Positions 21,853-55,004 of a DNA stretch of 64,000 nt are shown piece after piece; position 1 is the first letter of the stretch; the number at the start of each line of letters is the position of its first letter. The DNA is from Gonocerus acuteangulatus. Taxonomy: Eukaryota > Arthropoda > Insecta > Hemiptera > Coreidae. The notes below the pieces were generated by a model. The model saw only the letters and a list, made by a program, of their open reading frames with translations. It was not told the origin of the DNA and did no database searches. The position numbers were made by a program, and so were the translations under genes. The DNA lies in NCBI GenBank assembly GCA_946811695.1, contig OX328124.1, positions 27,299,448-27,363,447 of the forward strand, given 5' to 3'.

Positions 21853-22082
21853 TTATAGAACCTACGAGTTAAGGAAAAATTGATGTAGGTACCTTATTGA
21901 TTCATAATTTGTTTTATGATTTTTATATTGATGTTATTTCTGTAAGTTTAGGATTACATTTTATACTTTTGTTTCATTTTGTATTGTTTCTATTTCAGGC
22001 ATTATCCGTAGTGCAGTGTAGTGATTTGAGATAGTGACAGTGAGAGTGAGTGTTGTGTAAATTATCGTTTGGCCCATTCGAG

Positions 22083-22125
22083 ATGTGGCCTACCGCTTTC
22101 CTGTTTTTAGCCCTCCTAGCCTCAG
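22083..22125 (+). CDS. Candidate first coding exon, signal-peptide start of a secreted or membrane protein
   Basis: The exon runs from 21999 (after acceptor TATTTCAG) to 22125 (donor CTCAG, then GTATGT). The first ATG in it, at 22083, has G at -3 and opens a frame for MWPTAFLFLALLAS plus the first base of a glycine codon. A short N-terminus followed by a run of Phe/Leu/Ala and small residues is a signal peptide core. The phase-1 intron after it is the usual place and phase for a signal-peptide exon. The 84 upstream exon bases contain no ATG. No later exon was found in the window, so the protein is not identified; a large intron is likely. It could also be a chance combination of splice-like sites, but three agreeing signals make this the second-best host gene here. 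Confidence 0.55.
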
Positions 22126-22164
22126 GTATGTTTATGTTTTAATATTTGTTTTATTAATTATTTA

Positions 22165-22206
<42 letters not shown>

Positions 22207-22306
22207 TATTCTTATAGATGACCCAAAATATCAAAATTCTTTTTTATCCTAGGAGGCATGGGGTCATTATAGCAGTCTTCCTTTATTACACCACTTTATT
22301 TATTGG

Positions 22307-22351
22307 GCCCGACATGTTTCGTGCATCTTTTCTTCGCACCTCTTCAGGGGC
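22307..22351 (-). ncRNA. Hammerhead-ribozyme-like motif, left arm
   Basis: Minus strand order: GCCC (stem I), CTGAAGA (core C3-A9 with N7=A), one extra G, GTGC, loop, GCAC (stem II), GAAA, CATG (two-base-pair palindromic stem III), TC, GGGC (stem I). All invariant core bases are present. The extra base between A9 and stem II departs from the standard fold, so activity is uncertain. Confidence 0.6.
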
Positions 22352-22440
22352 ACTTCTTGCAAGGAAGTCCTCCCGTTACCAGTATTAAGCCGGACTCCAG
22401 AGGGAGTACTTGGTAACGGGAGGACTTCCTTGCAAGAAGT

Positions 22441-22485
22441 GCCCCTGAAGAGGTACGAAGAAAGGATGCACGAAACATGTCGGGC
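22441..22485 (+). ncRNA. Hammerhead-ribozyme-like motif, right arm
   Basis: Same order as the left-arm copy: GCCC, CTGAAGA (22445-22451), stem II, GAAA (22472-22475), CATG, TC, GGGC. Predicted cleavage would follow C22481. Stem II is weaker here because GTGC has become GTAC opposite GCAC. The same extra base follows the core. Confidence 0.55.
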
Positions 22486-22557
22486 CCAATAAATAAAGTG
22501 GTGTAATAAAGGAAGACTGCTTTAATGACCCCATGCCTCCTAGGATAAAAAAGAATA

Positions 22558-27128: not shown

Positions 27129-27330
27129 AAATAAATTAGCATCTGGACGTATAGTTCTCAATCTTCCCATCGCCCTGATGAAGGCTTGAAGTTCAAGCCG
27201 AAACGTCGGCACAATAAAACCATTTTTACGATTAAATGTAGTTTTATTAAGTAGCAGTGACCGAACCCCGACAATCCCTACCTCGCATCATCTACGATCA
27301 ACGATCTCCTCTCAATAAAATAAATTATAT
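27129..27330 (+). mobile_element. Terminal fragment of a Penelope-like element or retrozyme
   Basis: Holds a hammerhead-like motif (next entry) followed by CACAATAAAACC and ATTAAATGTAGTTTTATTAA, a layout typical of such element ends. Borders are approximate. Confidence 0.5.
27171..27211 (+). ncRNA. Hammerhead-ribozyme-like motif
   Basis: GCC (stem I), CTGATGA (27175-27181), one extra A, GGCTTG, AAGTT, CAAGCC (strong six-base-pair stem II), GAAA (27200-27203), CG, TC (27206-27207), GGC (stem I). Core bases are all canonical. The minimal palindromic ACGT at stem III suggests a dimeric form. The extra A before stem II is non-standard. Confidence 0.6.
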
Positions 27331-39621: not shown

Positions 39622-39810
39622 GCCAACGGCCATAGCCACGTTGAATGCACAGGTTCCCGTTGATCACCGAAGTTAAGCAACGTCGGGCGTCAGAACCTGA
39701 ATGGGTGACCGACCATGTGCTGTTGGCATTATGAAAGGGTGGCAACCTGTAGATAGCCCGGCGTTAATAGCCTAATTGTCGATACGCCGTTAAACACGAG
39801 AAAAAAAAAA
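39622..39810 (+). mobile_element. 5S-rRNA-derived SINE, copy 1
   Basis: The head follows 5S rRNA from its first base (GCCAACGGCCATAGCCACGT) through ATCACCGAAGTTAAGCAACG (the A-box/intermediate promoter region) to GAATGGGTGACCG (C box), with small gaps (CGGGCGTCAG lacks TGG). The last 5S bases are replaced by ATGAAAGGGTGGCAACCTGT and the tail CGGCGTTAATAGCC, GATACGCCGTTAAAC, then an A run. It is a SINE3-type element, not a functional 5S gene. Confidence 0.9.
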
Positions 39811-44140: not shown

Positions 44141-44144
44141 TAAC

Positions 44145-44595
44145 TCCCATCAGCCGAAATATCTCCAATCAGCTGAAATATTCCAGATCAGATGAAATAT
44201 CTCCTATCAGCCGAAATAATTCACATCAGCCGAAATATCTCCCATCAGCTGAAATACCTCTATCAGCTTAAATAACTCCCATCAGCCTTAATATCTCCAA
44301 TCAGCCGAAATAATTCACGTCAGCCGAAATATCTCCCATCAGCTGAAATACCTCTATCAGCTTAAATAACTCCCATTAGCCTTAATATCTCCAATCAGCC
44401 GAAATAATTCAAATCAGCCGAAATATCACCCATCAGATGAAAAACCTCCACTAGCTGAAATACCTCCCAAAAAGCTGAAATAACTCACATCAGCTGAAAC
44501 AACTCATATCAGCTAAAATACCTGCCAACAGGTGAAATATCTCCTATCACCTGAATTACCTCCACAAGCCAAAATAACTCACATGATCTGAAGAA
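44145..44595 (+). repeat. Degenerate minisatellite, unit about 19 bp
   Basis: Over 20 copies of a unit like ATCAGCCGAAATATCTCCC. Central copies form a longer repeat: the run CACATCAGCCGAAATATCTC, CAGCTGAAATACCTCTATC, CAGCTTAAATAACTCCCAT, CAGCCTTAATATCTCC recurs nearly unchanged about 115 bases later. Units decay towards the right end. The open frame at 43996-44271 only reads into it. Confidence 0.9.
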
Positions 44596-45869: not shown

Positions 45870-46265
45870 CATGTATGTATATGTATAGATACATACATGC
45901 ATACGCACACACACCCCAGCTATTTGTATATGTATATATACATACATGCATACACACACACACCAGCTATTTGTATATGTATATATACATACATGCATAC
46001 ACACACACACACCCCAGCTATTTGTATATGTATATATACATACATGCATACGCACACACACCCCAGCTATTTGTATATGCCTATATACATACATGCATAC
46101 ACACACACACCAGCTATTTGTATATGTATATATACATACATGCATACACACACACACCAGCTATTTGTATATGTATATATACATACATGCAGACGCACAC
46201 ACACCCCAGCTATTTGTATATGTATATATACATACATGCATACGCACACACACCCCAGCTATTTG
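45870..46265. repeat. Minisatellite, unit 47-51 bp, about 8 copies
   Basis: Each unit is CAGCTATTTGTATATGTATA, TACATACATGCATAC, then a variable CA run with or without CCC. CAGC anchors occur at 45917, 45964, 46015, 46064, 46111, 46158, 46207 and 46256. Each unit holds a TATATGTATATATACATA palindrome. Three plus-strand frames and minus frames stay open through it; they are artefacts. Confidence 0.93.
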
Positions 46266-47445: not shown

Positions 47446-48092
47446 GGTTCTTTGCTGGTTATCTATTACTACTTGACTCGTTATCTACGGTTATAATCCA
47501 TATTCGATAATGGCAAGCAATATTTCTTAATAAAAAGGTAGAGGTTCTTTGCTGGTTATCTATTACTACTTGACTTGTTATCTACGGTTATAATCCATAT
47601 TAGATAATGGCAAGCAATATTTCTTAATCGGTTATAATCCGTATTAGATAATGGCAAGCAATATTTCTTAATCGGTTATAATCCGTATTAGATAATGGCA
47701 AGCAATATTTCTTAATAAAAAGGTAAGAGGTTCTTTGCTGGTTATCTATTACTACTTGACTCGTTATCTACGGTTATAATCCATATTAGATAATGGCAAG
47801 CAATATTTCTTAATCGGTTATAATCCATATTAGATAATGGCAAGCAATATTTCTTAATCGGTTATAATCCGTATTAGATAATGGCAAGCAATATTTCTTA
47901 ATAAAAAGGTAGAGGTTCTTTGCTGGTTATCTATTACTACTTGACTCGTTATCTACGGTTATAATCCATATCAGATAATGGCAAGCAATATTTCTTAATC
48001 GGTTATAATCCGTATTAGATAATGGCAAGCAATATTTCTTAATCGGTTATAATCCGTATTAGATAATGGCAAGCAATATTTCTTAATAAAAA
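47446..48092 (+). repeat. Two-level tandem array, 44-bp unit in 185-bp blocks
   Basis: The 44-bp unit (CGGTTATAATCCRTATTAGA, TAATGGCAAGCAATATTTCT, TAAT) starts at 47488, 47585, 47629, 47673, 47771, 47815, 47859, 47956, 48000 and 48044. Each block opens with AGAGGTTCTTTGCTGGTTAT, CTATTACTACTTGACTCGTT. The first block has one unit, the next three have three each, giving a 185-186-bp higher-order period. Confidence 0.93.
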
Positions 48093-48104
48093 GATTAATA
48101 AGAT

Positions 48105-48370: not shown

Positions 48371-48852
48371 GAAACCAGTCGCTTTTTCTTTGTCAGGAAC
48401 ATCGCGAACTAATTGTAAAAGACCCATTTTTCCTCACTAACATAAGCAGAGCTTTTTCATAAACAAACTCTAATTCACTGCTGAAGGTTACTTTACTCCC
48501 AGCAAGAACCAACACAATTGGTCTTCGGAATCCTCCAATAGGAAGGCAAAGGAGTTATGCGCATGCGCTGAATCACTGATACAATCACTACTGCTACTTC
48601 AAAAGTAACTGGATGTGGTCTTCGCAAAAAGACCCAAATAATCTATTGTATAGAATGTAATTTTTTTTTTAACTAGGCGTGAAAGTAATTTTATATTTTT
48701 TTAAAAGTTGTTTACATAAACAAAAAACAAAACAATAACAACTTTAATCATAACAACGCAGTATACTGGATACAGAAGTTCACAAGCATGCAGCAGCGCC
48801 TCTGGAGGTGTCCATAACAACGGATGCCCTAAGTTTGGCGGCTTTTAATTTA

Positions 48853-49460
48853 AACGTGATCCGGAGCAAAACCCCAACTTGTATTAACCGTTTTTTCCCC
48901 CTTTACATTACATCTTTATCTCTAGACACCCACAACTTAGTCAAGTTAATTTGAACGTGATCCGGAGCAAAACCCCAACTTGTATTAACCGTTTCCCCCC
49001 CCCCCCCCTTTACATTACATCTTTATCTCTAGACACCCACGACTTAGTCAAGTTAATTTGAACGTGATCCGGAGCAAAACCCCAACTTGTATTAACCGTT
49101 TTTTCCCCCTTTACATTACATCTTTATCTCTAGACACCCACAACTTAGTCAAGTTAATTTGAACGTGATCCGGAGCAAAACCCCAACTTGTATTAACCGT
49201 TTCCCCCCCCCCTTTACATTACATCTTTATCTCTAGACACCCACGACTTAGTCAAGTTAATTTGAACGTGATCCGGAGCAAAACCCCAACTTGTATTAAC
49301 CGTTTTCCCCCCCTTTACATTACATCTTTATCTCTAGACACCCACGACTTAGTCAAGTTAATTTGAACGTGATCCGGAGCAAAACCCCAACTTGTATTAA
49401 CCGTCCCCCCCCCCCTTTACATTACATCTTTATCTCTAGACGCCCACGACTTAGTCAAGT
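48853..49460 (+). repeat. Tandem array, unit 101-107 bp, six copies
   Basis: The unit is GAACGTGATCCGGAGCAAAA, CCCCAACTTGTATTAACCGT, a T/C homopolymer run, then TTTACATTACATCTTTATCT, CTAGACACCCACRACTTAGT, CAAGTT. ACGTG anchors: 48854, 48955, 49062, 49163, 49266, 49367. Length varies only in the C run. Confidence 0.94.
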
Positions 49461-49720
49461 TTCGTTGCAATGTATCAAAAATGTCTATATAATAATTTTG
49501 GTCCAGAATAAACCCCCTTTCCAGATATTACTGGTTACGAAACTATAATAGTCTAACCATTCGATACGGCAATGCATTATGCCAAGTTTCGTAGCGAAAA
49601 GAAAAACATTGTGGACACTCGTGTTACTGACACAGTAGATAGGATCAATAAGAATTTGAATACATTTCTCAAACGTTTTGGCATGAGTGTTACAATAAAA
49701 AATGTTAATATTTCGCATTG
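49461..49720. repeat. Dispersed repeat with AAGTTTCGT words
   Basis: TCAAGTTTCGTTGCAATGTA, GGTCCAGAATAAACC, GGTTACGAAACTATAATAGT and GCCAAGTTTCGTAGCGAAAA are of the same kind as words near 33045, 56592 and 57424. It looks like part of a widespread non-coding repeat of unknown class. Confidence 0.5.
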
Positions 49721-53664: not shown

Positions 53665-53879
53665 GATATATCATATGATTCACTGAGCCAAATGATCCCT
53701 CGAGTATTCTAATATCAAATCTTATCAGCAGCAAGTCTTATCAGTTAATTACTATACTCGTTTTGAAAATAAATAAAACATTATTTTAGACTTATTTACA
53801 TAACACTTCCTGAAATATGATATCTCCAGGCTTCAAAGGAGCCAATTTATTTTCTTAACGTTCAACAAACTTTTTTTTG

Positions 53880-54945
53880 TATTCTATCAGTACTATCGAA
53901 TACCGGTCAATGTATATTTGCATTCTATCAGTACTATCGAATACCGGTCAATGTATATTTGTATTCTATCAGTACTATCGAATACCGGTCAATGTATATT
54001 TGTATTCTATCAGTACTATCGAATACTGGTCAATGTATATTTGTATTCTATCAGTACTATCGAATACCGGTCAATGTATATTTGCATTCTATCAGTACTA
54101 TCGTATACCGGTCAATGTATATTTGTATTCTATCAGTACTATCGAATACCGGTCAATGTATATTTGCATTCTATCAGTACTATCGTATACAGGTCAATGT
54201 ATATTTGTATTCTATCAGTACTATCGAATACCGGTCAATGTATATTTGTATTCTATCAGTACTATCGTATACCGGTCAATGTATATTTGTATTCTATCAG
54301 TACTATCGAATACCGGTCAATGTATATTTGCATTCTATCAGTACTATCGTATACAGGTCAATGTATATTTGTATTCTATCAGTACTATCGAATACCGGTC
54401 AATGTATATTTGTATTCTATCAGTACTATCGAATACCGGTCAATGTATATTTGTATTCTATCAGTACTATCGTATACCGGTCAATGTATATTTGTATTCT
54501 ATCAGTACTATCGAATACTGGTCAATGTATATTTGTATTCTATCAGTACTATCGAATACCGGTCAATGTATATTTGTATTCTATCAGTACTATCGAATAC
54601 CGGTCAATGTATATTTGTATTCTATCAGTACTATCGAATACCGGTCAATGTATATTTGTATTCTATCAGTACTATCGTATACCGGTCAATGTATATTTGT
54701 ATTCTATCAGTACTATCGAATACTGGTCAATGTATATTTGTATTCTATCAGTACTATCGAATACCGGTCAATGTATATTTGTATTCTATCAGTACTATCG
54801 AATACCGGTCAATGTATATTTGTATTCTATCAGTACTATCGAATACCGGTCAATGTATATTTGTATTCTATCAGTACTATCGAATACCGGTCAATGTATA
54901 TTTGTATTCTATCAGTACTATCGAATACCGGTCAATGTATATTTG
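53880..54945 (+). repeat. 41-bp satellite array, exactly 26 copies
   Basis: The unit is TATTCTATCAGTACTATCGA, ATACCGGTCAATGTATATTT, G. All 26 units are 41 bp with only four recurring point variants (C for T at base 1; T for A in CGWATAC; T or A for C in ATACYGG). Because 41 is not a multiple of 3 and the unit has no stop in any plus frame, all three plus frames stay open for about 335-372 codons. Those frames are not genes. Confidence 0.97.
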
Positions 54946-55004
54946 TTCCATTTTACAGGGAATTAAACAAAGCCCGACTCTATTTACGGAATTAGTTGGA
55001 AACT

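Follow-up and report, generated by a model that had tools for sequence, protein, structure and literature searches.

A hammerhead-bearing palindrome in Gonocerus acuteangulatus as a probable head-to-head insertion of a short, non-autonomous Penelope-like retroelement

Within the 64,000-nucleotide stretch of Gonocerus acuteangulatus DNA analyzed here (the window) lies a palindrome that is best read as one insertion of a short (176 to 217 nt), non-autonomous Penelope-like retroelement, for which the genome offers about 1,100 candidate places, 40 of them scored per search. Such insertions were very probably made by priming on both target strands, with one cDNA per strand copied from RNA of a single source, the two cDNAs beginning at two different start sites and being joined 5' to 5'. 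The parts of the insertion are as follows; here and below, statements on published systems refer to the part of each paper covered.

22195..22556, no strand: whole insertion, a head-to-head pair of units of the putative short non-autonomous Penelope-like retroelement, flanked by AT repeats
22195..22384, minus strand: arm 1, unit positions 217 to 27, with tail, 5'-truncated
22381..22556, plus strand: arm 2, unit positions 1 to 176, with complete 5' end and without tail
22195..22235, minus strand: tail, the interval between two presumed reverse-transcription start sites, with (TA)n at its end (PMC11167929, PMC3846280)
22219..22266, minus strand: TGACCC...GGGTCA hairpin with the short (S) end inside its loop (fold and inspection by eye)
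22305..22353, minus strand: minimal hammerhead ribozyme with every scored pair intact, predicted cut between 22311 and 22310
22439..22487, plus strand: minimal hammerhead ribozyme in which one pair of stem II is broken, predicted cut after C22481
22167..22202, no strand: (TA)n at the left border, the commonest border among the sampled copies

The palindrome described in an earlier note on this DNA is real: inverted-repeat alignment pairs 22236-22381 with 22411-22556 in 146 ungapped columns with 3 mismatches, and a second repeat-detection measure gives 154 nt at 96% identity. The box drawn for the element in that note, 22236..22557, does hold the palindrome, but the repeat unit exceeds it and the insertion spans 22195-22556 (C5:27321642-27322003), with the two arms overlapping by 4 bases of microhomology at the center. 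The 362-bp insertion has no open frame of at least 110 codons, so that a reverse transcriptase (RT) with a GIY-YIG endonuclease is not supplied in cis and the element is non-autonomous at most; RT plus GIY-YIG frames do occur elsewhere in the same genome. A transcript spanning the locus is predicted to form a long hairpin of -285.5 kcal/mol, in which the ribozymes would probably be locked, each annealed to its complement. Rfam matches of the microRNA-precursor kind all fall below the gathering score and reflect this long hairpin, and they were set aside.

A genome search with the left arm returned 1,091 first-look candidates, 40 of which were scored; among the 71 matches listed, 41 are 99 to 100% identical over all 154 positions. 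The fetched copies revealed that the unit extends beyond the palindrome on one side and that the second arm is the same unit inverted, stopping at S. This non-coding unit has AGTATTAAGCCGG as its 5' end (AGUAUUAAGCC being the 5' end expected of a unit-length RNA) and runs either to ...GGATAAAAAAGAAT at position 176, the short or S end, or onward through TTTTGATATTTTGGGTCATCTATAAGAATAAATAAT and (TA)n to the T end, reaching up to 217 nt with the tail. A tail-agnostic search, for which the query piece lacked the tail, returned 1,101 first-look candidates, of which the 40 scored correspond to 40 insertion clusters, and the left-arm search added 22, including a 63-bp fragment, for 62 clusters in all; the expectation of further genomic copies was thereby borne out. 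With an arm counted when at least 20 nt aligned, a cut on which the arm counts depend, the 62 comprise 43 simple two-arm clusters (30 + 13), 14 with a single arm, and 5 with three or four arms; at the border of some copies scored as having one arm, a few bases from a second unit are visible. In 29 of the 62 clusters both 12-nt flanks consist solely of A and T, in 26 one flank does, and in 7 neither (at least one side in 55/62), and the (TA)n flanks mask any target duplication in this short family.

The layout is uniform. All 43 simple two-arm clusters in the sample of 62 have a minus-strand arm followed by a plus-strand arm, with the 5' ends facing each other, and direct or tail-to-tail simple pairs number 0 of 43; same-strand pieces occur in multi-arm clusters, two of the form '-++' and two '--+'. 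The two ends of a pair also tend to differ. Among the 30 simple pairs in the tail-agnostic set of 40, 24 combine one S and one T end, one is T/T, one is S/S, and four have one end of unassigned type, so that S/T holds in 24 of 26 scorable pairs (P = 5.2e-6 for at least 24 of 26 at even odds), this count leaving aside the four end-unassigned pairs (two of which look like one segmental duplication) and two three-arm clusters. The other 22 clusters contribute 13 S/T pairs out of 13 simple ones, which are not independent evidence, as their query favored T ends, and a multi-arm cluster that is T/T. Of the arms in the tail-agnostic S/T pairs, 18 of the 24 with a T end have a complete 5' end (position 5 or lower) and 6 are truncated; of the 24 with an S end, 11 are complete and 13 truncated. 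Center junctions consist of overlaps of 1 to 5 nt, short filler, or, in L053, long filler. Head-to-head order, variable centers, and A/T flanks are together the expected trace of two separate cDNAs joined 5' to 5' in AT-rich DNA. Inspection by eye extends the pattern to longer copies: L107 and L108 each have one S and one T arm in head-to-head order and show target duplications of 11 to 12 and 7 to 9 bp, L105 is complex and appears T/T, and the four close pairs visible among 49 places with a GIY-YIG match (see below) are all minus then plus.

These observations bear on the proposal that the palindrome serves to provide a ribozyme in transcripts from either direction, which we do not uphold: the head-to-head double insertion is the usual form of the family (43 of 43 simple pairs), stem II of the plus-strand copy is damaged, and the long hairpin (-285.5 kcal/mol) is predicted instead. 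Most likely, the palindrome is an integration product and the two ribozymes are a by-product of integration.

Each arm carries the hammerhead elements in the order GCCC-CTGAAGA-G-stem II-GAAA-CATG-TC-GGGC. The core CUGANGA, GAAA, and NUH, as well as stems I and II, are present, with the left arm fully paired; on the right, position 22455 is A in place of the G of the left arm, which sets A opposite C within the short stem II. The claim of a complete hammerhead per arm therefore holds for the core order in both arms but fails for stem II of the right one. Stem III is the six-base palindrome ACAUGU without a loop, so that a single copy would be unable to close it in cis; hammerheads with a weak or absent stem III, some of them working as dimers, have been described (PMC3088659, PMC6155905, PMC7229834). 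A covariance model built from 11 ribozymes at Penelope-type (GIY-YIG) loci recognized both arms at E = 1.2e-8 and 6.6e-7, the next score in the window being 2.6; it was trained solely on such loci of this genome, with the window arms outside the training set, and its rows (model R1, alignments A2 and A3) were picked by a scan requiring at least 4 bp of stem II. The assignment of the arms to the hammerhead class is confirmed by this comparison, and we take their ribozymes to be real; self-cleavage at the given sites is a prediction.

Other searches responded unevenly. A simple rule that asked for an undamaged core, stems I and II of no fewer than 3 bp, and 2 bp of stem III found, in the window, the left arm and a motif at 27175 and missed the right arm, and the 11-ribozyme model missed the 27175 motif; a pattern search of viral contigs gave 44 matches, none of which had stems under the same simple rule. 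The Rfam hammerhead models returned no match to the arms even at E up to 10, no hammerhead at the 27175 motif, and none for a control ribozyme beside an open Penelope RT/EN frame. As Rfam is silent on this last ribozyme too, its silence on the arms carries little weight, and its models seem not to cover this kind of hammerhead (silent on 4 of 4 motifs tried). The covariance-model search on both strands suggested in the earlier note thus finds both arms with the own-genome model and neither with Rfam.

The 27175 motif is itself part of a second hammerhead-like sequence in the window (27169-27213, plus strand), whose stem III is ACGU, which has the extra base too, and which belongs to another high-copy family. 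A search for that family gave 882 first-look candidates, of which 40 were scored, and the 57 matches listed fall into 40 clusters, of which 25 are single, 13 are head-to-head pairs, and the other two have the orders '-+++' and '++'. More than one family hence has the head-to-head layout, but the 27175 family also includes direct copies. In its '-+++' cluster (C15:6795151-6795757), further same-strand copies come after an inverted unit, a tandem arrangement that no simple pair of the palindrome family shows.

The same ribozyme recurs at the resident Penelope-type elements. A GIY-YIG search of the insect's own assembly (1.106 Gb, 135 contigs) recovered 49 places among 150 scored of 1,673 candidates, and 40 of the 49 were examined for a ribozyme. 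The motif CTGANGA...GAAAC[AG]TGT[ACT], which specifies core letters only, is present in 21 of these 40 loci and lies in sense, downstream of the endonuclease match, in 18 of the 40, in agreement with the Penelope-like link proposed in the earlier note. Upstream of the endonuclease, 20 GIY-YIG loci have antisense motifs in 6 cases and a sense motif in one (L105). The most complete arrangement is at L096, where a single open stretch of 609 codons with RVT_1 (E = 2.6e-7) and GIY-YIG (E = 9.8e-6) domains precedes the ribozyme; a PDB sequence search with this frame gave no match. The 25 motifs at the GIY-YIG loci represent 24 distinct places, L103 and L164 holding one and the same motif, and in 21 of the 24 a stem II of at least 5 bp follows one unpaired base (the exceptions are L104, L109, and L159). 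The extra base between the core and stem II, which had been considered either a family trait or a sign of decay, is accordingly a trait of the family.

Alignment of these ribozymes provides evidence of covariation. The alignment (A4) holds 18 of the 25 core-only rows plus both window arms, the 7 omitted rows being letter-identical to kept ones, and counting identical rows once leaves 16 distinct rows and 144 cells. Of these cells 95.8% are paired, a level reached by none of 500 shuffles, and 18 cells are changed on both sides of stem I or II, again equaled in 0 of 500; these are the compensatory changes that the earlier note had asked for in the two stems. Sliding the structure by 1 to 3 columns gives at most 50.7% pairing. 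The rows are related, so that the shuffles overstate significance, whereas the slid controls keep the relatedness. Two measures were weaker, namely, pairs with a double change (5, reached in 17 of 500 shuffles) and further pair types (9, reached in 368 of 500). Stems I and II covary across the ribozyme families of this genome. The minimal hammerheads of Penelope-like elements (PLEs) are said to act as dimers, reportedly in the work of Lunse et al. (2017) and of Cervera and De la Pena (2014). The absence of a closed stem III, its palindromic sequence, and the PLE association are common to those and to the ribozymes here, which are unlike them in the extra base between A9 and an intact stem II in 21 of 24 motifs; such an insertion reportedly occurs in a viroid hammerhead.

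The unit has a second feature in common with the Penelope-type loci. On the 3' side of the ribozyme, inspection by eye showed a TGACC...GGGTCA pair, or a close variant of it (GGGTTA, AAAGGTCA), both in the unit and at most of the loci inspected, L111 being one where it was not seen; both window arms have it (by eye and from the fold of the unit hairpin). In the unit, as in the L096/L105/L107/L108 family, the S end falls inside the hairpin loop and the T end past it. The insertion thus contains a 3' control region like that of the resident PLEs, hammerhead plus presumed RT-start hairpin. The search recovered no autonomous element with the full sequence of the unit, and positions 1 to 59 gave matches at chance level (E = 2.7 or worse) among 20 Penelope-type loci.

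Comparison of the two arms of each insertion offers a view of the template. The comparison took 41 head-to-head pairs from two-arm clusters whose arms reach 26 nt or more, with the segmental duplication represented by a single copy; 9 variants are common to both arms and 37 are unshared, so that arms often differ; random re-pairing of arms gave a mean of 0.71 shared variants and a maximum of 6 in 5,000 trials. Most of the unshared variants are singletons, but position 159 A is confined to one arm at C1:169474930 and position 173 T to one arm at C1:66659505; the three differences between the window arms are all unshared. The excess of shared variants over chance points to arms that tend to stem from one source, be it a single RNA that served as template for both or sister RNAs from the same locus; sharing could also be raised by later gene conversion from one arm to the other. 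The arm starts further indicate the state of the RNA. The predicted ribozyme cut separates unit position 101 from 102. Of 116 arms, 76 have their 5' end within positions 1 to 5, two at 104 and 105, and none at 102, just past the predicted cut, which rejects a ribozyme-cut template; most insertions were evidently copied from RNA that the ribozyme had not cut. For the anole Penelope protein (PAc), unprocessed RNA is described as the main insertion substrate, the ribozyme cut occurring only when protein is present (PMC11167929). The role of the ribozyme probably lies elsewhere in the element cycle.

We accordingly propose the following course of integration. The unit would carry a Penelope-like 3' control region, a minimal hammerhead with a palindromic, loop-less stem III followed by the TGACCC/GGGTCA hairpin; a resident Penelope RT/GIY-YIG protein probably mobilizes it in trans, presumably by binding this hairpin, and would cut both strands of AT-rich repeat DNA. 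Each target 3' end would then prime one cDNA in vivo, one from the S site in the hairpin loop and the other from the T site past the hairpin, and the two cDNAs, having reached the RNA 5' end or stopped short of it, would be joined there via microhomology or filler. The outcome would be a palindrome with one outward-facing ribozyme per strand.

The steps of this scheme have partial precedents. With a preference for AT-rich DNA, PAc cleaves both strands and extends each of them, using two internal start sites on the RNA, the interval between which is a tail of 30 to 40 bp; its start sites show no strand difference in vitro, and the later integration steps are described there as unvalidated (PMC11167929). 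Penelope elements have adjacent inverted pLTRs with a tail on one of them, head-to-head being the commonest order, and self-priming on an antisense template was suggested for their palindromes (PMC3846280). This last idea is the chief rival to two-strand priming. The template would fold back at the 5' end of the element and be copied into a second arm, and the rare variants common to both arms of an insertion fit it, as do junction microhomologies such as ACT, which a folded-back 3' end would also produce. The copied arm should, however, repeat the tail, whereas in 24 of 26 scorable pairs the tail is on one arm only and the other ends at or near S; truncation, moreover, is found in both kinds of arm, in 6 of the 24 T and 13 of the 24 S arms. 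The S/T pairing thus argues against self-priming (PMC3846280) and fits two-strand priming (PMC11167929), and we regard the former as unlikely.

An animal non-LTR retrozyme, that is, a ribozyme-cut, circularized RNA copied into tandem arrays, would account for the size of 176 to 217 nt, the hammerhead, and the lack of coding capacity (PMC7229834), but it is very unlikely given 0 direct tandems in 43 simple pairs, 76 of 116 arms starting at positions 1 to 5 with none at 102, and a ribozyme of the minimal kind rather than canonical type I. Slighter again is the chance that a functional double ribozyme or a long hairpin RNA specific to this locus has a role in regulating the gene around it: the left-arm ribozyme is intact in its pairing and the hairpin very stable, yet the sequence belongs to a high-copy family, the right-arm ribozyme is damaged, and the hairpin competes with the ribozyme fold. 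It is scarcely credible that the palindrome is a DNA transposon of the foldback or MITE type, with long terminal inverted repeats on which a transposase acts. A long inverted repeat in many near-identical copies speaks for it, but the centers vary among the copies read, the two arms differ in that only one has the tail, single arms make up 14 of the 62 clusters, no fixed target duplication was seen in the copies examined, and a similar layout and ribozyme are found at Penelope-type loci. A terminal-repeat reading was accordingly rejected, fixed terminal inverted repeats and a constant interior not being found among copies with variable centers and unequal ends.

Parts of the picture are already in print: hammerheads in Penelope elements, tailed inverted pLTRs, and Penelope elements that are short and nonautonomous (PMC6685494). 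Like the family here, the Penelope/Poseidon-type PLEs have inverted pLTRs (PMC3846280; PAc, PMC11167929), a hammerhead (in PAc), and head-to-head ends; those of A. vaga have an optional tail of 30 to 40 bp on one inverted end, and these PLEs have AT-rich targets and variable target duplication (a duplication being read here by eye in two longer copies). Unlike them, the present unit is short and non-coding, has mostly AT-repeat borders, and occupies about a thousand candidate places. Its nearly strict S/T pairing in the sample also contrasts with the lack of a strand difference in vitro in PMC11167929. The elements of heliconiine butterflies (PMC6685494) are likewise short, non-autonomous, and recent, and the part of that paper covered mentions neither ribozyme nor layout. 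Animal non-LTR retrozymes (PMC7229834) are also small non-coding retroelements with a hammerhead, but they have tandem repeats, canonical type I ribozymes, and circular RNA in contrast to the head-to-head pairs and mostly uncut templates found here. The strict S/T pairing and the same-source arms look new, neither appearing in the titles and abstract openings of the literature surveyed.

The family matters as a record. Short, young, and with about a thousand candidate places in the genome of a single species, it preserves the Penelope reaction in nature, with center junctions, start-site pairing, and template identity readable for each insertion. On the origin of Penelope inverted ends, for which self-priming (PMC3846280) stands against both-strand extension in vitro (PMC11167929), it argues for two-strand priming with paired start sites and against self-priming; it also exposes a kind of ribozyme missed by the Rfam hammerhead models in all four motifs tried. 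We are evenly balanced on a further generalization, that Penelope-type integration is a paired reaction in which one RNA, or two sister RNAs perhaps held together by their palindromic stem III, gives an S-site cDNA on one strand and a T-site cDNA on the opposite one. If so, the tail would be the footprint of this S/T asymmetry, and two-armed, one-armed, and truncated copies would be outcomes of one mechanism.

Several other features were encountered. Two equal-scoring GIY-YIG matches, C1:126554129 (minus) and C1:126558935 (plus), with one in-frame stop each, lie head-to-head 4.8 kb apart and possibly form a large palindromic Penelope copy. Upstream of the insertion, 22003-22126 (plus strand) is a possible first exon by eye, with AG before it, an ATG and hydrophobic start (MWPTAFLFLALLAS), and GT after it, perhaps the basis of the host intron assumed in the earlier note. 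A 5S rRNA-like segment at 39622-39728 (plus strand; 51.8 bits, gapped against the model) is possibly a pseudogene or the head of a 5S-derived SINE. Tandem arrays occupy 44144-44564, 45876-46265, 47488-48093, 48845-49461, and 53876-54946 of the window and include a 41-bp unit in 26 copies with 97% matches.
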